From NCBI RefSeq assembly GCF_003173615.1, contig NZ_QGNA01000005.1, positions 124,001 through 188,000 of the forward strand: a stretch of DNA of 64,000 nt, given 5' to 3'. The notes below the pieces were generated by a model. The model saw only the letters and a list, made by a program, of their open reading frames with translations, did not search any database and was not told the origin of the DNA. How positions within the stretch are numbered: the first letter of the stretch is position 1; every line of letters starts with the position of its first letter. A program made the translations under genes and the position numbers. The DNA comes from Falsiroseomonas bella (GTDB lineage: Bacteria; Pseudomonadota; Alphaproteobacteria; Acetobacterales; Acetobacteraceae). Positions 11,376 through 58,684 of the stretch are shown in pieces.

Positions 11376-12254
11376 TCAGGACGAGGGAAGAATCCGGCAG
11401 GCGCGGGCGGCGGCGCGCGCCAGAAGGATCATCCGGCGCGCGGCGACGGCGCCCTTGCCGCTTTCGCCGATCGCGGTCTTCACCAGCGGGTGGGTGGCGA
11501 CGAACTGCGTCGCGGCGTCGATCGCCACATCCGCGGCGGCGACGGCGCCGGCCTCGAACAGCGCGCGGCGCAGCAGGCCGAAGGTGCCGGCGATGCCCGG
11601 ACGCAGCCCATGGATCGCGGCGACCTCCCGCACCAGCCGAAAGCCGCGCCAGACGAAGAAGACGGCGTCCAGCGCCGGCGTCGGCATGACCACGGTCGCA
11701 CCCACCGCCTGCGCCGCCGCGACCCGCCCGGCCGCCGTCGTCGCGCGATCGAGCTCGGCCAGCGGCCCGGCTTCCAGCAGCGCGCGCAGGCTGTCGAGGT
11801 CGTTGGCGCCGCGCAGCGCGTTCACGGAGGGCGAAGCGGCCGGGACGCGCGCGGCCCAGGCCAGCGTCGCGGCGCGCGCCGCGACATAGTCGTTGCGCGC
11901 GAAGGCCGCCCGCGCCGCGTCCACCGCCTCCAGCGCCCACAGGCCGCGAAGCTCCCGCAGCACGGCCCAGGCGATCAGCCCGAAGCCGAGCAGTGCGACG
12001 GCCAGCGTCACCCAGCCGAGCCAGTCGGCGCGGGCGAACTGGTCGGTGACGAAATTCGCGACGTCCAGCACCGAGAGCCCGACCAGCAGCACCGCAAGCC
12101 CCGCCGCCGCGAGGCCGAGCGCCGACCAGCGGCGCGACGCGCGCGGCTTCGCCACGGGCGCGACCGCCTGCTCCCAGCCGAAATCGAGGCGCTGGGCGGG
12201 GGCGTCGTCGGCCTCGGTCAGGATGCGCGGGCGGCGCGGCGGCGTGTCGCTCAT
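11376..12254 (-). CDS. YcjF-like (TIGR01620/DUF697) inner-membrane protein
   Basis: This 292-residue protein has a Pro/Arg-rich cytoplasmic N-terminus, a pair of membrane helices at about residues 45-70 and 82-108 (ALGLAAAGLAVLLVGLSVLD and WVTLAVALLGFGLIAWAVL), and a C-terminal domain with two hydrophobic segments (AVGATVVMPTPALDAVFF). That layout and the gene pairing match the YcjF/TIGR01620 family, which occurs with the YcjX P-loop protein encoded just upstream here. The function is poorly known; stress-linked inner-membrane roles have been suggested. ATG 12254 is chosen because MSDTPPRRPRIL fits the family start and the longer frame crosses the hairpin element at 12271-12393. Confidence 0.8.
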   Translation of the reverse strand: MSDTPPRRPRILTEADDAPAQRLDFGWEQAVAPVAKPRASRRWSALGLAAAGLAVLLVGLSVLDVANFVTDQFARADWLGWVTLAVALLGFGLIAWAVLRELRGLWALEAVDAARAAFARNDYVAARAATLAWAARVPAASPSVNALRGANDLDSLRALLEAGPLAELDRATTAAGRVAAAQAVGATVVMPTPALDAVFFVWRGFRLVREVAAIHGLRPGIAGTFGLLRRALFEAGAVAAADVAIDAATQFVATHPLVKTAIGESGKGAVAARRMILLARAAARACRILPSS

Positions 12255-12270
12255 GATCGGAAGCCTTTCT

Positions 12271-12393
12271 TGCGGCCCGCCCTTGGGCGGGCCGAGGCCG
12301 CGAATGCGGCCTGCGCACAGCCGAAGCGCGCCGCAACAACGCCCGCGGCCTGCGCGCAGCCAAGCGGCCGGAGGCCGCGCCCGGCGCCTGAGG
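12271..12393 (-). repeat. Multi-hairpin intergenic element, copy C
   Basis: Read on the minus strand, this spacer between the YcjX-like and YcjF-like genes begins CCTCAGGCGCCGG, then a hairpin GCGGCC-TCC-GGCCGC, TTGGCT, an altered middle part, a hairpin GGCCGC-ATTC-GCGGCC, CTCGGCC and a final GC hairpin. The same order of boxes and loops occurs at 28883-28977 and 35443-35535. This copy is longer, with extra sequence in the middle. It starts four bases after the stop of the upstream gene. Confidence 0.75.
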
Positions 12394-12396
12394 GCA

Positions 12397-13716
12397 TCAG
12401 AGGAGATCCCCGATGAGTTGGGCCAGCAGCGCATCCAGGCCGAGATGCGGGATGCCCGCGCGGCCCGCGCCATCCAGCCGCGGCGGCTGGAACACGGGCA
12501 TCTCGAAGAAGGCGTGCTCCCAGAAGGCTGCGTCGGGCCGGCGCAGCGGGACCTCGCCCGGATAGACCTTCCGCATCACGCCGCCTTCCATCAGCACGCC
12601 GCGCACCACGGATACGGGCCTTCCCTCCAGCGTCGCCACGTCGTCCTCGGTGCAGCGGATCGCGGCGATGGCGTGGACGGAGGTCGTGGCATCCAGCGGC
12701 CCGGCCGGGTCGCGCCCGACCAGGTCGCCCAGCAGCCCGAGCAGCGCATCGCGCGACCGGCTCGGCACATGGTCCGCCTTGGTCGCGGCGAAGCCGACGC
12801 GCCGCACGCCCTGCCCCGTCAGCAGGTCGAACAGGCCGAGCCCACCGCGCAGGCTGGCGGCGACGGCGGCCAGCGCCGCGGCGGTGTCGTCGAAGGCCTC
12901 CTCCCCGGCATGCAGCGCACCCAGCGCATCCACCAGCACCGCCTGGCGATGGAAGCGGCGGAAGAAGGGATCGAAGAAGCTGCTCCGCTGGTCGTCCAGA
13001 TAAGCTTCGTGGCGGCGCCGCAGCAGCGGGGCCAACTCGCCCGTCACGCGCTCCGGCAGCGGGAAGAACCAGAGCAGCGGCGCCTCGCCGCGCGGCCCGG
13101 GGTTCAGCGCGCGGCCGGGCTGCAGGAAGCGGAAGCCGAGCGTGTCGCGGCAGGTGCGCAGCGCGTCCCGGTAAAGCGAGAAGCCCTGCCGCGCCAGGGA
13201 CTCCTCGGCCGGCGCGCCGGCCGGCAGCGCATCCACGAAAGCCAGGAACGCGGCCGCCGCCTGCGCCCGCCGGCCACGACGCAGCCGTGCCAGCGTCTCG
13301 CGCGACCAGTCGGCATAGGACTGGTTCAGCATCGGCAGATCGAGCAGCCATTCGCCCGGATAGTCGAGCAGTTCCAGCGTGACGCTCCGGTTGCCGGCCA
13401 GCATCCCGCGCGCCTTGCCCAGGAAGGAGCGCGGCTCGATCTCCAGCGCGATCTCGAGCGTGGAAAGGTCCTCGGTCCGCTCCGGCCACCGCGGCGGATC
13501 GGAGGCGAGCGCGAGCAGGTGCCCGCTGGCATCGAAGCGCGGCGTGGACTGCGTCTCGGCCGGCACGATGCGCGCGCCGCGCAGCCGCCCACCCACAGCC
13601 GCCTCGACGGCCGGCAGCGTCCGCGCTCCCTGCCCGGCGGCCAGCAGGTTCGCCACCAGCGAGGTGAGGAACACCGTCTTGCCGGCGCGCGAGAGGCCGG
13701 TGACGGCGAGCCTCAC
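12397..13716 (-). CDS. YcjX-like P-loop ATPase/GTPase (DUF463)
   Basis: The 439-residue product begins with RLAVTGLSRAGKTVFLTSL, a Walker A motif (GLSRAGKT) typical of the YcjX/DUF463 family, and continues with TLELLDYPGEWLLDLPML and ATKADHVPS, resembling switch II and TKxD base-recognition motifs. Cytoplasmic, function poorly known; it is encoded with the YcjF-like membrane protein, as in E. coli ycjX-ycjF. GTG 13716 is the first standard start, but the frame stays open and family-like upstream (FLTPFEDALAGAGDLGRAL), and a CTG at 13803 has GGGAG eight bases before it, so the true protein is probably about 29 residues longer. Confidence 0.85.
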   Translation of the reverse strand: MRLAVTGLSRAGKTVFLTSLVANLLAAGQGARTLPAVEAAVGGRLRGARIVPAETQSTPRFDASGHLLALASDPPRWPERTEDLSTLEIALEIEPRSFLGKARGMLAGNRSVTLELLDYPGEWLLDLPMLNQSYADWSRETLARLRRGRRAQAAAAFLAFVDALPAGAPAEESLARQGFSLYRDALRTCRDTLGFRFLQPGRALNPGPRGEAPLLWFFPLPERVTGELAPLLRRRHEAYLDDQRSSFFDPFFRRFHRQAVLVDALGALHAGEEAFDDTAAALAAVAASLRGGLGLFDLLTGQGVRRVGFAATKADHVPSRSRDALLGLLGDLVGRDPAGPLDATTSVHAIAAIRCTEDDVATLEGRPVSVVRGVLMEGGVMRKVYPGEVPLRRPDAAFWEHAFFEMPVFQPPRLDGAGRAGIPHLGLDALLAQLIGDLL

Positions 13717-27923: not shown

Positions 27924-28859
27924 TCACCCCTTGCTCATCGCCGCCACTTCGGCGGCGAAGTCGGAGGTCTCCTTCTGGATGCCCTCGCCGAGCTGGAAGC
28001 GGGCGAAGCCGGTCAGGTTGCCCCCGGCCTTCTTCACCACCTCCTTCACGCGGCTCTCGCCGTCATGCACCCAGACCTGCTCCAGAAGCACCACTTCCTC
28101 GTAGTACTTCCGGATGCGGCCCTCGATCATCTTCTCGATGATCTCCGGCTTCTTGCCCGAGCCCGCGGCCTGCTCGCGCAGCACCGCCTTCTCGCGCTCC
28201 AGCTCGGACGGCTCGACGCCGCCGATGTCGAGGGCGGTGGGGCGCGCGGCCGCGACATGCATGCCGATCTGCCGGCCCAGCGTCTCCAGCGCCTCGATCT
28301 CCGAGGACGCCTCGAGCGCGACCAGCACGCCGATCTTGCCGAGGCCCGGCTTCACGGCGTTGTGCATGTAGGAGGCGACGGTGCCGTTCTGCACGCGCAG
28401 CACGCGGGCGCGGCGGATTGTCATGTTCTCGCCGATCGTGGCGATCAGGTGGGTCAGCTCCTCCTGCACCGTGCGCAGGTCGCGCCCGCCCTCGACCAGC
28501 TCGGGCACGCCCGGATAGGTCGCGTTCTTCAGCGCCTCGACGTCATCGCCGACGGAGAGCGCGAGCTCGGCCACGGCGGCGACGAAGTTCTGGAACAGCT
28601 CGTTGCGCGCGACGAAGTCGGTCTCGGCATTCACCTCGACCATGGCGCCGACGCCGGGGCCGGTGGCCACGCCGACCAGGCCCTCGGCCGCGACGCGGCC
28701 CGACTTCTTGGCGGCGGCCGAGAGGCCCTTCTTCCGCAGCCAGTCGATCGCGCCTTCCATGTCGCCGCCCGACTCGGTCAGCGCCTTCTTGCAGTCCATC
28801 ATGCCGGCGCCCGTGCGCTCGCGCAGTTCGCGCACCATCGCCGCGGTGATCTCGGCCAT
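27924..28859 (-). CDS. tsf: Elongation factor Ts
   Basis: EF-Ts (311 aa) exchanges GDP for GTP on EF-Tu. The N-terminal UBA-like domain carries [19 protein letters not shown], followed by [10 protein letters not shown] and [13 protein letters not shown] in the core, then a coiled-coil subdomain and the C-terminal module [15 protein letters not shown] 28859 has AAAGGAG upstream and fits the family. A 168-base spacer holding the hairpin element copy A separates it from rpsB. Confidence 0.97.
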
Positions 28860-28882
28860 TGATTGAGACTCCTTTGTATTGC

Positions 28883-28977
28883 CCTCAGACGCCGGGCGGC
28901 CGCATCCGCGGCCTTGGCTTCGCCGCACCGGCGGCGGGCCGCGTTCGCGGCCTCGGCCGGCTTTGCCGGCCGCCCGG
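28883..28977 (+). repeat. Multi-hairpin intergenic element, copy A
   Basis: This spacer between rpsB and tsf reads on the plus strand CCTCAGACGCCGG, hairpin GGCCGC-ATCC-GCGGCC, TTGGCT, hairpin CGCCGC-ACCG-GCGGCG, hairpin GGCCGC-GTTC-GCGGCC, CTCGGCC and hairpin GGCCGGC-TTT-GCCGGCC. The orientation is opposite to the genes around it. A further hairpin (GGCGGC-TTCGCCA-type) lies at 28995-29018. On the mRNA these would form between rpsB and tsf and could stop or stabilise the transcript. Confidence 0.8.
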
Positions 28978-29027
28978 TACCAACTTAGGCGAGCCAGGCG
29001 GCGGCTTCGCCAGCCGCCCGGCTCAAC

Positions 29028-29822
29028 TCACTCGGCCGCCGGCTGGTCGGTCGGGGCGACTTCGACAGGCGCTTCCGGCAGCGCCTCGGCCGGCAGGTCC
29101 TCCATCGCGCCGATGTCGGCGCCGGAGGAGGAGAGCGCACCGGCCAGGCCATCCAGCACCGCGCCCGCGACCATGTCGCAGTAGAGGTGGATCGCGCGGA
29201 TCGCATCGTCATTGCCCGGGATCGGGAAGGCGATGCCCTGCGGGTCGGCGTTGCTGTCCACCACGGCGATCACCGGAATGCCGAGCTTGTTGGCCTCTTC
29301 GATCGCCAGCTTCTCCTTCACCGTGTCGATGACGAAGATGATGTCGGGCAGGCCGCCCATGTCCTTGATGCCGCCCAGCGCGCGGTCGAGCTTCTCCTTC
29401 TCGCGCGTCAGCATCAGGACCTCCTTCTTGGTGAGGCCCTGGATGTCGCCGCCGAGGCGCTCCTCCATCTGCTTCAGGCGCTTGATGCTGCCCTGGATGG
29501 TCTTCCAGTTGGTCAGCATGCCACCCAGCCAGCGGTGGTTCACGTAGTACTGGCCGCAGCGCTGCGCGCTCTCGGCCACGTAGTCCGCCGCCGCCTTCTT
29601 GGTGCCGACCATCAGCACGCGCCCGCCGCCCGCCACCACGTCGCGGATCGCGCGCAGCGCGCGGTCCATCATCGGCACGGTCTGCTGCAGGTCCAGGATG
29701 TGGACCTGGTTGCGGACGCCGAAGATGTACGGCGCCATCCGCGGGTTCCAGCGGCGGGTGTGGTGGCCGAAATGCACGCCGGCCTCGAGCAGGCCGCGCA
29801 GGGTGACGTCGGGCATCGCCAT
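29028..29822 (-). CDS. rpsB: 30S ribosomal protein S2
   Basis: S2 (264 aa) binds the 30S subunit late in assembly. The family sequence is clear throughout: [61 protein letters not shown] and [19 protein letters not shown] at 29822 is chosen over the Met two codons in because AGAAGAGG-type bases lie upstream. The C-terminal Ala/Glu/Pro tail is common in alphaproteobacteria. It heads a minus-strand run to gloA and diverges from the glycosyltransferase genes. Confidence 0.97.
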
Positions 29823-32385: not shown

Positions 32386-33518
32386 TCGGCACGCGCCGGC
32401 TTTCCCGGCTGCTGCTGCTGCTGCCCTCGGCGCGGCTCGGCGGCACCGAGCGGCACAGCGCGGCGCTGGCGGCGCGGCTGCATGCGCAAGCGGGCCTTGC
32501 CGTGGACCTCGCCGCCGAGCCCGCGGTTCTGGAGGGGTTGGGCGCACCGGAGGGCGTCGGCCTCCACCCGGCGAGGCTCGCCTGGGAGGCCGACGAGGAG
32601 CCGGCGGCGCGCGCAGCCCGGCAGGCCGCGGAGACACGCCGCCTGCTTGCCGACCTTCAGCCGGATGCCGCGCTGGTCGCCCTGCCCTGGCCCGATGCCG
32701 GCAACGGCATCCTGCCCGTCCTGGCCGAGGCCGCGCTGCCGCGCCTGGTGCTGCTGCACCTGGCGCCGGAGGCCGAGCCGCCCGTCGTCCCGCCGGCGCT
32801 GGGGCTGGAAGGCGCGGTGGTCGCCGCCGTCTCCGCCCCGATCGGCCGCCGCGCGGCGCGCGCCTGGGGCCTGCCGGACGCCTCGGTCGCCGTGCTGCCG
32901 AACCCCGCGCCGCGCCCCTCGGCGCTGGACCGCGCCGCGACGCGGGTGGAGTTGCGCGCCGCGCTCGGCCTTTCGCCGACCGAACGGCTGCTGCTCTTCG
33001 TCGGGCGGCTGGAGGAGGCGAAGGGCGCCGACCTGCTGCCGGGCATCATCGGCCGCCTCGACGCCACGCTGCTGGTGGCGGGCGACGGCGCGCTGCGCGG
33101 GATGCTGCAGGAGATCGCCGCGGCCGATCCCTTCAAGCGCCTGCGCCTGCTCGGTCCGGTCGCCGACCCGGCGCCCTGGTATCTGGCCGCCGACGCGCTG
33201 CTGCTGCCCTCCCGGCTGGAGGGCGCGCCGCTCGCCTTCCTTGAGGCCGCGGCGCATGGCTGCCCGGTGGTCGCGACACCGGCCGCGGTCGAGGCCTTCG
33301 GGGACGCGGCCCCCCGCATCGCTTCCGTCGCCGAGACATCGGATCCGGCCGGCATCGCCGCCGCGGCGGCCGCGCTGCTGGCCGATCCCGCCCGCGCCGC
33401 GCGGCTGTCCGCGGCGGCGGCGAAGCAGGTGGCCGGGCGCGACTGGGCCGGCGTGACCACGCAGGCGCTCGGCCTGCTGCGCGCGGCGACCGCCGCGGCA
33501 CGAGGAGGGACGGCATGA
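32382..33518 (+). CDS. Glycosyltransferase family 4 protein
   Basis: The 378-residue GT-B protein has LLLLLPSARLGGTERHSAAL at the N-terminus (the typical glycine-rich acceptor-side loop), LLFVGRLEEAKGADLL in the middle and LLLPSRLEGAPLAFLEAAAHG with the donor-binding E-x7-E-like segment near the C-terminus. It is likely a cytoplasmic transferase for a surface polysaccharide. Start and stop overlap both neighbours (ATGA at both ends), so three genes are translated as a unit. The sugar specificity cannot be read from the sequence. Confidence 0.88.
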   Translation: MIGTRRLSRLLLLLPSARLGGTERHSAALAARLHAQAGLAVDLAAEPAVLEGLGAPEGVGLHPARLAWEADEEPAARAARQAAETRRLLADLQPDAALVALPWPDAGNGILPVLAEAALPRLVLLHLAPEAEPPVVPPALGLEGAVVAAVSAPIGRRAARAWGLPDASVAVLPNPAPRPSALDRAATRVELRAALGLSPTERLLLFVGRLEEAKGADLLPGIIGRLDATLLVAGDGALRGMLQEIAAADPFKRLRLLGPVADPAPWYLAADALLLPSRLEGAPLAFLEAAAHGCPVVATPAAVEAFGDAAPRIASVAETSDPAGIAAAAAALLADPARAARLSAAAAKQVAGRDWAGVTTQALGLLRAATAAARGGTA

Positions 33519-35398
33519 TCGGCCTCAGGATCGGCGCCGCCGAGCTGGACGAGATCGAGGCCGGCGCGCCGGCGCTGGTGGCTGCGGCGGATCTCGACCT
33601 GCCGGAGCTTCGGCCCCTGGTGGTGCTCGTGCCGCGCGATGGCGTCCTGGCCCGCCCGGGCGCGCAGCCCGTTCGCAGCCTGCCACTGCCGCCGGACCTG
33701 CCGCTGCTGGCGCTGCTGGCCGGGGAGGAGGCGGCCGCCGGCCTGCTGCCCCTGCTGCCCCCTGGCATCCCGGTGCTCGCCGACCCGGCCCTGCTCTCGG
33801 GGCTGCTGGCCGAGGCGCTGCGGACGTCCCGCGCCGCCCAGGCCGCCGCGGAGGGCGAATCCCGCCGCCTGCTGCGCGCCCTCGGCGCCGCCCTACCGCG
33901 CCCGCTGCTGGCGCTGGACCTGCCGCCGATCGGCGCAGCCGCCACGGCGCCGCCCGCATCCCAGGCGCTCGGCCGCCCGGCGGCGGGGATCTGCACCGTG
34001 GAGCTGCATCTCGCCATGCCCGGCTCAGGCGGGCTGCATGTGCGGCTGCTGGCCGGGGAGCGCGTGGTCGGCAGCTGGCGCGTCCCGGAGGCGGCGCGCG
34101 GCCCCGGCTGGCTGGCGCTCGACCTGCCCGAGCCGGCGCCCGAAGACCCGGAGGAGGCCGTGCTGGAGGTTTCGACGGAGGCGACGGAGGCCCCGCCCCT
34201 GCTGTCGCTGGTCGCCGACCGGTCGCAGGCGGGGCTCGCCCTGCGCCTCTGGACCGCCGGCCCGGGCTGGTCGGTGCTGCCCCGGCACTTCGACTGGCCC
34301 GCCATGGGCGCGGCACGCCCTGCCCTGCCGCTGCCGCTCCCCGCCGCGCTGCTGGCCGAGGCCGTGCCGGATGGCGCGCGCGCCGAGCTGGTCGCCGTCG
34401 GGGAGGAGCCGCCGCGCCTGGTGCTCGAAATCCCCGCCGGCGGCGAGATGCTGCTCCGCCTGCCCGCCCTTCCCGTCGGCCCGGCCGACCTGCTGCGGCT
34501 GCGCCTGCTGCGCCCGGTCGGTGCCGAGGCGGGCATGGAGGCGGCACTCGCCGTTGCGCGCGCGGATGGCGAGGCCGGAACCGGCTGGCGCCCGATCGGC
34601 GCGCGGGCGGAACTCGCCCTGCCGTTGCCGGAGGGGGGCATGGCCTCGCCGCGTCTGGCCCTGCGCCATCGCGGCAGGCGGCCGGCCCTGGTGGAGGTGG
34701 AGAGCCTGGCGCTCATCGCCGGCGCGGCCGGGGAGAAGCGCGTGGCCCCGCCGGCCGAGCTCGCCGCCGGACGCGGGCGGTACGCGGTCGCCATGCCCTT
34801 CGGCGCCGCCCTGCCGCCCTGGCGCAGCGCGCCGCCGGCACCGCAGCCGCCCCTGGCCCAGCCCGGCGGCCCGGCGCGGGCCGTGCTCGCCCTGCCGCGG
34901 ACCGCCGCCGGCCCGGTGCCGCCGCGCATGCCGAGCGCCGCCAGCGGATTCCAGGAACTCCGCCTGAACCAGCACCTGGACAATGCCGGCTCCGGCTACC
35001 GCCACCTGGATGTCGGGATCAGCGGCCTGGTCTCCGCCGCGGGGCTCTGGCGACAGGTGCGGCTCAAGCTGTTCGAGCGGCGCGGCGTGGCGGGGCTCGA
35101 GTTCCGCCAGGCCAAGGGCTGGCCGCCGATGTTCGACGTCTGGCCGGAGGGCGGCAGCGACAACTATGGGCCGTTCTGGCGGCTCGAGACGGAGGTCACC
35201 GGCCTCGCCCTCGCCGCCCTGACCACCCCGCATGACCGCGCCCTGATCGCTGCTCTCATGGACGTGCTGCCGGAGATCGCCGGCCAGGCGAGCCGCGCCG
35301 CAAGGCTGGAGATGGCCGAGGCCGAGCCCTGGATCGGGCTCGCGCGCCGCGTGGTCGAGGCGGTCGGCGCCGCGCGGGGAACGACCCGCCCCGTCTGA
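33515..35398 (+). CDS. Unknown protein of glycan cluster, 627 aa (possibly DUF6212-like)
   Basis: No motif I can name with confidence. The protein has no signal peptide or membrane helix. Residues 1-150 are an alpha/beta region rich in Leu/Ala/Pro. About 155-215 and 290-420 look like beta-sandwich segments (GLHVRLLAGERVVGSWRVPE). After a Pro-rich linker (about 425-465) comes a better-conserved-looking C-terminal domain, QELRLNQHLDNAGSGYRHLD and MFDVWPEGGSDNYGPFW. From memory only, similar proteins in Acetobacteraceae are labelled DUF6212. It overlaps the preceding glycosyltransferase gene by four bases, and a terminator follows at once, so it closes this operon and probably has a role in the same glycan. 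Confidence 0.75.
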   Translation: MIGLRIGAAELDEIEAGAPALVAAADLDLPELRPLVVLVPRDGVLARPGAQPVRSLPLPPDLPLLALLAGEEAAAGLLPLLPPGIPVLADPALLSGLLAEALRTSRAAQAAAEGESRRLLRALGAALPRPLLALDLPPIGAAATAPPASQALGRPAAGICTVELHLAMPGSGGLHVRLLAGERVVGSWRVPEAARGPGWLALDLPEPAPEDPEEAVLEVSTEATEAPPLLSLVADRSQAGLALRLWTAGPGWSVLPRHFDWPAMGAARPALPLPLPAALLAEAVPDGARAELVAVGEEPPRLVLEIPAGGEMLLRLPALPVGPADLLRLRLLRPVGAEAGMEAALAVARADGEAGTGWRPIGARAELALPLPEGGMASPRLALRHRGRRPALVEVESLALIAGAAGEKRVAPPAELAAGRGRYAVAMPFGAALPPWRSAPPAPQPPLAQPGGPARAVLALPRTAAGPVPPRMPSAASGFQELRLNQHLDNAGSGYRHLDVGISGLVSAAGLWRQVRLKLFERRGVAGLEFRQAKGWPPMFDVWPEGGSDNYGPFWRLETEVTGLALAALTTPHDRALIAALMDVLPEIAGQASRAARLEMAEAEPWIGLARRVVEAVGAARGTTRPV

Positions 35399-35399
35399 T

Positions 35400-35436
35400 A
35401 CCAACGGCCGCTTTCAGCGACTCGTTGGTTTGTTTG
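35400..35436 (+). terminator. Intrinsic terminator after the 30-35.4 kb operon
   Basis: ACCAACG (35400-35406) and CGTTGGT (35423-35429) enclose an inner CGCT-TTC-AGCG stem and are followed by TTGTTTGTT. It starts one base after the stop codon. The stem plus T-rich tail fits a Rho-independent terminator of the three-gene glycosyltransferase operon. Confidence 0.8.
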
Positions 35437-35442
35437 TTCGTG

Positions 35443-35535
35443 CCTCAGGCGCCGGCGCGCGCGTCCGCGCGCTTGGCTCGCCGCACTTGCGGCGGCGCCC
35501 GTTCGGGCGCTCGGCCGCCTGCCGTCGGCCGCAGG
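35443..35535 (+). repeat. Multi-hairpin intergenic element, copy B
   Basis: Directly after the terminator: CCTCAGGCGCCGG, hairpin GCGCGC-GTCC-GCGCGC, TTGGCT, hairpin CGCCGC-ACTT-GCGGCG, hairpin GCGCCC-GTTC-GGGCGC, CTCGGCC and an imperfect GGCCG/CGGCC hairpin. Compared with copies A and C, stem bases change on both sides together while loop bases stay the same. Confidence 0.8.
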
Positions 35536-35584
35536 TCATGACGCCCTGCGGGGAGGATCCGCTCAGCCACCGCAACCCGCCTCC

Positions 35585-58326: not shown

Positions 58327-58543
58327 GGCAAGGCTCCGGGCGGCGGGAAGGCCGGGAAACTAGACCGGATCGCGGGTGCGGGGAATGGCGGCGACAAAGG
58401 GCGCAACAACGTCGGCCAAGTCACTGGTTCCGGCCATGCTGCAGCGCAACAAGATGAGGCGAAGCCACGCGGAAAGAACAGATCACAACGGATTTGCCAC
58501 CTTTCCGCCCAAAAACCCCTTTGCTTTCGGAGGGTCCAAAGGT

Positions 58544-58579
58544 AAAGAAAAGACGGGCCGCACCCCAAGGGCGCGGCCC
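58544..58579 (-). terminator. Intrinsic terminator of the 58.5-kb transcript
   Basis: GGGCCGC (58555-58561 side) pairs with GCGGCCC (58573-58579), continued inward by CCC/GGG around a three-base loop, and is followed on the minus strand by TCTTTTCTTT. It is the strongest Rho-independent terminator in the window and points to a transcript coming from DUF1467 or from the sRNA candidate. The remaining part of the gap (58327-58543, 58685-58790) holds the proS leader and nothing else I can identify. Confidence 0.85.
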
Positions 58580-58684
58580 GAGTTTAGGGAGGAAACGCCA
58601 GTCACACGGCAGAGAGAGGATCAACCTCTCCCTGGGGCAGATATTGGCGTGGGGAGCTAAGGCGGCACAACAACAAAGGCCGCC
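58544..58684 (-). ncRNA. Candidate structured small RNA
   Basis: In the 464-base gap between DUF1467 and proS, the minus strand can fold as: hairpin GGCGGC/GCCGCC (58661-58684), a long stem-loop closed by ACGCCA/TGGCGT (58645-58650 with 58595-58600) with an inner ten-base stem CAGGGAGAGG/CCTCTCTCTG (one G-U), a single-stranded TTTCCTCCCTAAACTC, then an intrinsic terminator. The free CCTCCC could pair with Shine-Dalgarno sequences, as in trans-acting alphaproteobacterial sRNAs. This stretch is less GC-rich than its surroundings. No Rfam family is recognised; 6S RNA is an alternative I cannot test. The 5' end is unknown. Confidence 0.55.

Follow-up and report, generated by a model that had tools for sequence, protein, structure and literature searches.

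The 64,000 nucleotides of the Falsiroseomonas bella genome analyzed here (the window) contain three copies of a repeat composed of several hairpins, which raises the question of what kind of DNA this is and what keeps its stems paired. An earlier note on the window had located the copies and described their boxes, loops, and stem variants, and all of these are verified in the sequence; the positions stand, but the end of copy 2, the start of copy 3, and the extent of the insert at copy 1 are corrected here. The core of the element is ~92 bp long and has four hairpins, in the order CCTCAGRCGCCGG (the 5' box), hairpin 1, TTGGCT, hairpin 2, hairpin 3, TCGG, and hairpin 4, which bears out the view that it is larger and more ordered than ordinary REPs. 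Hairpin 1 has a 6-bp stem and a loop that is mostly TCC or NTCC, hairpin 2 occurs in a short form or in a longer variant (as in copy 1 and in other copies), and the loop of hairpin 3 is mostly NTTC. Full-length copies have a fifth hairpin (hairpin 0) at the 5' end, which is present in 19 of 60 copies from the source genome (5.94 Mb; G000), 12 of 53 from a sister species in the same genus (G007), and 25 of 139 other copies (G and L numbers are our genome and locus labels). In the other 41 of the 60 G000 copies, the DNA 5' of the box has no hairpin and is T-rich on average. The element is short and carries no gene, full-length congeneric copies being mostly 158 to 159 bp. Between genera, the loops, the linkers, and the 5' box are conserved and the stems are variable. 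The window copies have the following features (basis in parentheses).

About 12254-12396, minus strand: inserted DNA of copy 1 (site empty in 12/12 resolved congeners)
12381-12393, minus strand: copy 1 5' box, CCTCAGGCGCCGG (sequence)
12364-12378, minus strand: copy 1 hairpin 1, GCGGCC-TCC-GGCCGC (sequence)
12358-12363, minus strand: copy 1 TTGGCT, after hairpin 1 (sequence)
12313-12357, minus strand: copy 1 hairpin 2, long variant (fold; shared by other copies)
12296-12311, minus strand: copy 1 hairpin 3, GGCCGC-ATTC-GCGGCC, then TCGG (sequence)
12273-12294, minus strand: copy 1 hairpin 4 (fold)
28883-28974, plus strand: copy 2 core, ending near 28974 (sequence, fold)
28883-28895, plus strand: copy 2 box (sequence)
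28898-28913, plus strand: copy 2 hairpin 1 (sequence, fold)
28914-28919, plus strand: copy 2 TTGGCT (sequence)
28921-28936, plus strand: copy 2 hairpin 2 (sequence, fold)
28937-28952, plus strand: copy 2 hairpin 3 (sequence, fold)
28954-28972, plus strand: copy 2 hairpin 4, 28972 being its corrected end (sequence, fold)
35396-35398, plus strand: stop codon TGA of the gene at 33515-35398, read as the left copy of a TNA duplication (gene frame, sequence)
35399-35538, plus strand: copy 3 unit (congener matches run from 35395-35399 to 35538)
35399-35408, plus strand: copy 3 5' terminus, TACCAACGGC (sequence)
35400-35429, plus strand: copy 3 hairpin 0, ACCAACG...CGTTGGT, then a T-rich stretch (sequence; head shared by congeners)
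35443-35531, plus strand: copy 3 core (sequence, fold)
35443-35455, plus strand: copy 3 box (sequence, fold)
35457-35472, plus strand: copy 3 hairpin 1 (sequence, fold)
35473-35478, plus strand: copy 3 TTGGCT (sequence)
35479-35494, plus strand: copy 3 hairpin 2 (sequence, fold)
35495-35510, plus strand: copy 3 hairpin 3 (sequence, fold)
35512-35531, plus strand: copy 3 hairpin 4 (sequence, fold)

The copy 3 unit begins at 35399, ~44 bases before the start noted earlier. No 3' terminus was found for copy 3 (L048), which has a left end only, the other being missing or diverged. Folding energy alone (z of -1.86, -2.40, and -0.86 for copies 1, 2, and 3) is unremarkable for some copies and is weak evidence for copy 3. 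The window copies have no Rfam match, either at the gathering score or at E <= 1; elsewhere in the window, 58541-58617 on the minus strand matches RF00519 (suhB/mmgR sRNA) at 41.8 bits, compared with a gathering score of 41.

The three repeats are part of a dispersed family in the source genome. CCTCAGRCGCCGG occurs 51 times in the 5.94 Mb (21 forward and 30 reverse), and its reversed control does not occur there. Within the window, a scan allowing up to 2 mismatches gives 15 matches, compared with a chance expectation of 22.3, and its exact matches are the three known places only. A covariance model, the check proposed in the earlier note, was built from 10 copies and finds further ones, for a total of at least 73 genome matches at E <= 0.001, which is a lower bound, with 150 scored among 34,299 first-look candidates. 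Retrieval by the model or by regular expressions favors intact copies. The box is present in each of the 14 congeners examined, in 11 to 55 copies; there are 0 to 2 copies in other genera of the family (8 genomes) and 0 to 4 in other families (16 genomes). Of 289 genomes sampled over the Alphaproteobacteria, 19, the source genome included, contain the pattern CCTCARRCGCCGG, 12 to 24 bases, and CTTGGCT, with 2 to 65 copies each; its reversed control is found in none of the 289. The combination of box, variable hairpin, and CTTGGCT is patchy across the Alphaproteobacteria. A stricter box gives at least 118 stretches in a scan of genome contigs, and among the matches listed are Roseomonas and relatives, Azospirillum, Niveispirillum, Nitrospirillum, Paramagnetospirillum, Erythrobacter, Sphingomonas, and Methylobacterium. 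Plasmid matches (4 and 6 records, 7 distinct, two of the matches weak or partial) are to a few large plasmids, all predicted to be non-mobilizable, and those in Niveispirillum cyanobacteriorum correspond to places in genome G197. One 92-base query had no match in phage records. A literature search covering the main texts of mostly open-access papers found no description of the family.

Some copies are arranged in tandem. Next to the tmRNA gene, both G000 (L028, C7:374890-375085) and G007 (L238) have two such copies, and G007 has three more at C4:705718-706014, with a 103-base period. In sphingomonads and relatives (L150, L172, L173, and L186), copies lie tail to tail, 10 to 26 bases apart, in a BIME-like arrangement that is absent from the window. 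Full-length copies of Azospirillum and Niveispirillum (L096, L106, L138, L147, and L163) have an extra 3' hairpin that terminates in TTGGTAT; ATACCAA heads their 5' hairpin, and the stem sequences are unlike those of this genus. Some G000 copies (L017, L041, and L285) contain a short double hairpin (CGTCGTGCC...GGCACG...GTGACG) that resembles a pair of CGTC-tagged repeats, which Acetobacteraceae are reported to lack in the passages of PMC3733652 drawn on here.

Although the boxes, loops, and stems were described correctly in the earlier note, the terminal repeats and target duplications were missed. Full-length congeneric copies have inverted ends, TACCAACGGC...GCCGTTGGTA (TACC...GGTA). In a BLAST search of congeners with copy 3, many matches span window positions 35395-35399 to 35538; at most of the 20 such places that we fetched, the start is TACCAACGGC or a close variant, preceded by TGA or TCA, and the finish is GCCGTTGGTA or a close variant, 158 to 159 bp on. 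Among all loci there are 22 heads, and 19 of these have a 3' end at 150 to 171 bp with no more than 4 mismatches, including three at off lengths (L428, L429, and L443) that are doubtful and probably due to chance. The flanking 3-mers are identical in 14 of the 19, compared with 7.7 in shuffles (P = 0.0003), and the middle base is identical in 17; the left 3-mer is TNA in 18 and the right in 15, against a background of 2.6%. The fetched places alone give identical 3-mers in 13 of 18 (P = 0.001), and a looser first rule for the 3' end, tightened after its result was known, gave 8 of 15 (P = 0.005). In an earlier set of 17, mostly from other genera, for which TNATACC and GGTATNA were imposed and 6 members come from one metagenome-assembled genome, the middle base is the same in 13, compared with 4.8 in shuffles (a value reached by 0 of 20,000), and opposite (inverted) in 3. 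The duplicated TNA in this genus is nearly always TGA or TCA. At L063, L317, and L004, divergence from the empty sites is too high to fix a duplication, and orthology at the copy 3 site in G007 is insufficient to read an empty state.

The TGA is frequently a stop codon. Judged from flanks of only ~75 bases, all 9 copies with a left TGA, copy 3 included, start immediately after a coding-like frame that terminates at that TGA; the two alternative frames have lower scores. Stop codons make up 45 of the 111 gene-sparing TNA sites of the window, which gives P = 0.0003 for 9 of 9, with the qualifications that this background is one genome applied to several species and that survival of harmless insertions contributes. 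From flanks of the same length, a coding-like minus-strand gene ends or starts at the junction in 8 of 12 TCA-type copies (none in 4), and in copies with a right TGA, A|TGA opens a frame in 5 of 5, coding-like in 2.

The neighbors of copy 1 are a YcjX-like gene (PF04317, 12397-13716) and, on the other side, a DUF697 gene (11376-12254). The inserted DNA is bounded by the upstream stop TGA (12397-12399) and a downstream TGA (12251-12253), which together with the last inserted A forms an ATG start. All 12 congeners resolved at this site (G005 and G011 were not resolved) are without the element: the upstream TGA overlaps the next start as GTGAG in 10 and as TTTGAG in G003, and G010 has a 24-base spacer. 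The junctions, TGA|TGCCCTCAG...GATCA|TGAGCG, have TGA on both sides. This is only consistent with a duplication, since both TGAs are also needed, as stop and as start.

Defined ends on full-length copies, TNA duplications, insertion polymorphism, and frequent placement at stop codons characterize this family. It is REP-like in its fold, in its lack of genes, and in its place behind genes, but MITE is the better class: it has the small size, the absence of genes, the terminal inverted repeats, and the fixed-length duplication of a MITE, with the reservation that copies 1 and 2 do not have the full-length inverted ends and copy 3 has the left one only. MITEs with a 3-bp TNA duplication are associated with elements of the IS5/IS1031 and PIF/Harbinger types. 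Like MITEs generally, the element is small, gene-less, and present in many copies, with inverted ends and a short duplication; unlike them, it has yielded no parent element or transposase, many of its copies are without ends, and it is a hairpin array with conserved loops, exchangeable stems, and frequent stop-codon placement. We therefore consider it probable that the family is non-autonomous mobile DNA, MITE-like in its full-length form and moved and maintained as proposed below. Against this reading stand the failure to find a transposase and the majority of G000 copies (41 of 60) without the full-length head. The lower count under the looser 3'-end rule, the 4 TCA-type copies with no gene edge, the other reading of the TGA repeat at copy 1, and, as described below, the state of the copy 2 site and the one-sided changes in some orthologues also weigh against it.

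The search for a mobilizer covered both neighbors and candidate families. No linked gene emerged from clustering 526 predicted proteins near elements in other genera (118 loci); even the most widespread cluster is present at 6 loci and, judged by eye, resembles a common household (SDR-like) family. Nor did the exact 10-bp terminus reveal an autonomous partner, as a distant inverted pair, in G000, G004, G011, or G013. Movement in trans by a resident IS5-family transposase is one alternative, and matches to PF13340 in G000 (5), G007 (6), G197 (7), and G065 (2) favor it, as does the IS5-family element L404 of G007, which has TTA on both sides. IS5 members of the IS1031 type duplicate TNA. However, the ends of L404, GAGCCCATCCGG, are unlike TACCAACGGC, and the IS5-family loci have other ends; moreover, G218 and G250 have no PF13340 match despite 50 and 36 pattern copies. 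We regard this source of transposase as doubtful.

The stems are paired far more often than in shuffles. In a 10-row alignment with 290 pair cells, 96.6% of the cells hold a standard pair and both-side changes number 41, values reached by 0 of 500 shuffles in either case; two weaker measures, pairs with a both-side change and further pair types, are reached by 32 and 66 of 500, and sliding the arms by 1 to 3 columns reduces pairing to 27 to 51%. Hairpin 3, retrieved with a regular expression that requires the TTC loop, is 97.8% Watson-Crick in 53 G000 copies, compared with 72.1% in shuffles (maximum, 78.0), and its four inner pairs are split between C-G and G-C. Hairpin 1, scored by a best-of-two-loops rule that was also applied to the shuffles, is 86.9% paired in 60 G000 copies (shuffled, 66.5%; maximum, 71.4). 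The corresponding values are 91.8% versus 70.0% (hairpin 1, 53 copies) and 96.2% versus 76.3% (hairpin 3, 48 copies) in G007, and 78.4% versus 56.9% (143) and 87.2% versus 64.8% (13) in other genera. The paired substitutions that the earlier note had looked to further copies for are present. For hairpins 1 and 3 pooled, with at least 4 of 6 pairs required (336 of 518 regular-expression matches were kept, and many of the 182 removed are in a wrong frame), the 2016 cells comprise 1815 G-C or C-G, 74 A-T, 13 G-T, 20 A-C, and 94 others. The stems are kept paired almost only by double changes between C-G and G-C.

Between orthologous copies, several pairs of a stem can change together. Of the candidate orthologous pairs in G000 and G007, 14 were aligned and 10 scored, with flanks 83 to 96% identical; hairpin 1 is comparable at 8 sites, where it is unchanged at 4 and changed on both arms at 4 (in 1, 2, 3, and 4 of 6 pairs), with one one-sided change overall. 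One-sided point changes also occur in hairpin 3 of L065 (two) and L064 (one); hairpin 3 of L300/L231 and L308/L224, which misfit the regular expression, was left out. The clearest case of stem exchange is copy 2, which lies between tsf (27924-28859, minus strand) and rpsB (29028-29822, minus strand), opposite to the direction of the genes. Among 13 congeners read at this site, it is shared with G007 only and missing in 12. Between the two species, stem 1 is GGCCGC/GCGGCC versus GCGGCC/GGCCGC, with both arms changed, while hairpins 2 and 3 are the same save for one loop base and hairpin 4 differs in its loop. The site has no clean empty state, as the other congeners carry different short sequences or hairpins; across the rpsB-tsf gap (28860-29027; counterparts L199 to L210), element-free congeners have unrelated GC-rich sequence, several examples of which look hairpin-like by eye. 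The two tandem copies beside tmRNA share the same alteration of hairpin 2, which points to conversion or array turnover.

The earlier note had concluded from the covariation that the fold is selected. The covariation is real, but the conclusion goes too far, because several pairs change together between orthologues and G-T is not favored. If palindromes are exchanged or copied anew as wholes, the stems could remain paired without selection on each pair. In its extreme form this becomes a purely mutational explanation, in which template switching keeps GC palindromes perfect in functionless, decaying debris. Whole-stem changes and the like alteration of hairpin 2 in the tandem pair fit such an account, which we nevertheless judge unlikely, as a mutation bias on palindromes would not account for the conservation of loops, linkers, and 5' box across genera with variable stems.

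A multicopy structured RNA with a role in mRNA stability, termination, or attenuation, its fold selected in the RNA, would also have well-paired stems in many copies, and it would be expected near genes. Based on a codon-usage gene finder, 46 of 49 G000 rows are intergenic and 3 lie over predicted gene edges, and 43 of the 46 are behind at least one gene, in a list in which some element ends are rough, two rows (L014 and L019) do not line up with the box, and two or more intergenic regions are counted twice. The family is dispersed, mostly intergenic, and downstream of at least one gene, in line with the earlier note. However, orientation among the 46 is mixed (17 with both genes in the element direction, 14 convergent, 12 against, and 3 divergent), so that the element does not favor one strand relative to genes, as it would have to in an RNA role. 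In addition, the G-U tolerance of a structured RNA is not seen: a constraint on the RNA fold of this strand should put G-T above A-C, and the observation that it is no commoner argues against such a constraint. Given also the lack of an Rfam match and the exchange of stems as units, we find an RNA origin of the fold distinctly improbable.

Known palindromic repeats offer further comparisons. The CGTC REPs of Alphaproteobacteria, as described in the relevant parts of Di Nocera et al. 2013 (PMC3733652), are single 8- to 9-bp hairpins with a CCA tail, missing from Acetobacteraceae, and are defined by a CGTC, TGTC, or CCTC tag followed at once by an 8- to 9-bp stem starting with A-T pairs. Both they and the present element are palindromic, alphaproteobacterial, intergenic (mainly between unidirectional and convergent genes), and without a known dedicated transposase. 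In contrast, the present element has different boxes and at least four hairpins, its full-length copies have inverted ends with a duplication, and the CCTC of its 5' box is followed by unpaired AGRCGCCGG and then by 6-bp G+C stems. GTAG REPs and REPINs with RAYT, in the portions of PMC8266576 and PMC6006769 used here, likewise have conserved unpaired letters by a hairpin, a structure that matters, and intergenic positions; they differ in being single 20- to 40-bp palindromes with a GTAG tag, compared with a larger, multi-hairpin element (~92 bp, four hairpins, and other boxes) with inverted ends, a TNA duplication, and no Y1 transposase. The link to RAYT suggested earlier is not supported: PF01797 is found in 0 of 15 genus genomes, in a search whose control was positive in 5 of 14 named genomes, including Escherichia coli and Caulobacter, and the sections of PMC6006769 on this point report no or few tnpA-Y1 homologues in Alphaproteobacteria, whatever the genome size. 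A REP/BIME family whose mobilizer is a RAYT (Y1 HUH) transposase recognizing folded single-stranded DNA would share the intergenic, palindromic, tandem copies downstream of genes and the tail-to-tail pairs of other genera, but, already strongly weakened by the PF01797 result, the TNA duplications, the inverted ends, and the absence of a GTAG or CGTC tag adjoining a single palindrome, it is very unlikely.

Integron attC sites conserve a fold and a few unpaired positions and have variable stem sequence. The element resembles them in all of these respects and differs in having several hairpins rather than one and in that no gene cassettes were seen at its sites.

We return to the MITE-like reading. 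An enzyme supplied in trans would cut at the element ends, and the many copies without ends, copies 1 and 2 among them, would be truncated or represent a second insertion form. Pairing would be maintained by the exchange of whole palindromes between copies, or by template switching that copies one arm from the other, perhaps helped by selection for a foldable single DNA strand. Where an insertion is exactly at the last codon of a gene, as is frequent, the duplicated TGA preserves the stop, and an ATG can arise where the final A of the element meets TGA; the family would be tolerated because insertion lands where no reading frame breaks. A more specific proposal, which we offer with little confidence, is that the enzyme recognizes a folded single DNA strand through its loops and linkers (CCTCAGRCGCCGG, NTCC, TTGGCT, and NTTC), leaving the stems free to be rewritten as units, that insertion is addressed to opal stop codons, and that the TGA duplication and the terminal A rebuild the stop and an overlapping ATG. 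If this were true, TGA-rebuilding insertion would let the element invade tight operons at little cost.

Strong stem covariation within one genome may reflect palindrome exchange rather than slow compensatory selection, and searches that use covariation to discover RNAs should allow for this. For a palindromic repeat family of Alphaproteobacteria that has no RAYT, the ends, the size of the duplication, and the target are now defined. The spread of such repeats inside compact operons would be explained if their insertion at stop codons automatically restores both stop and start.
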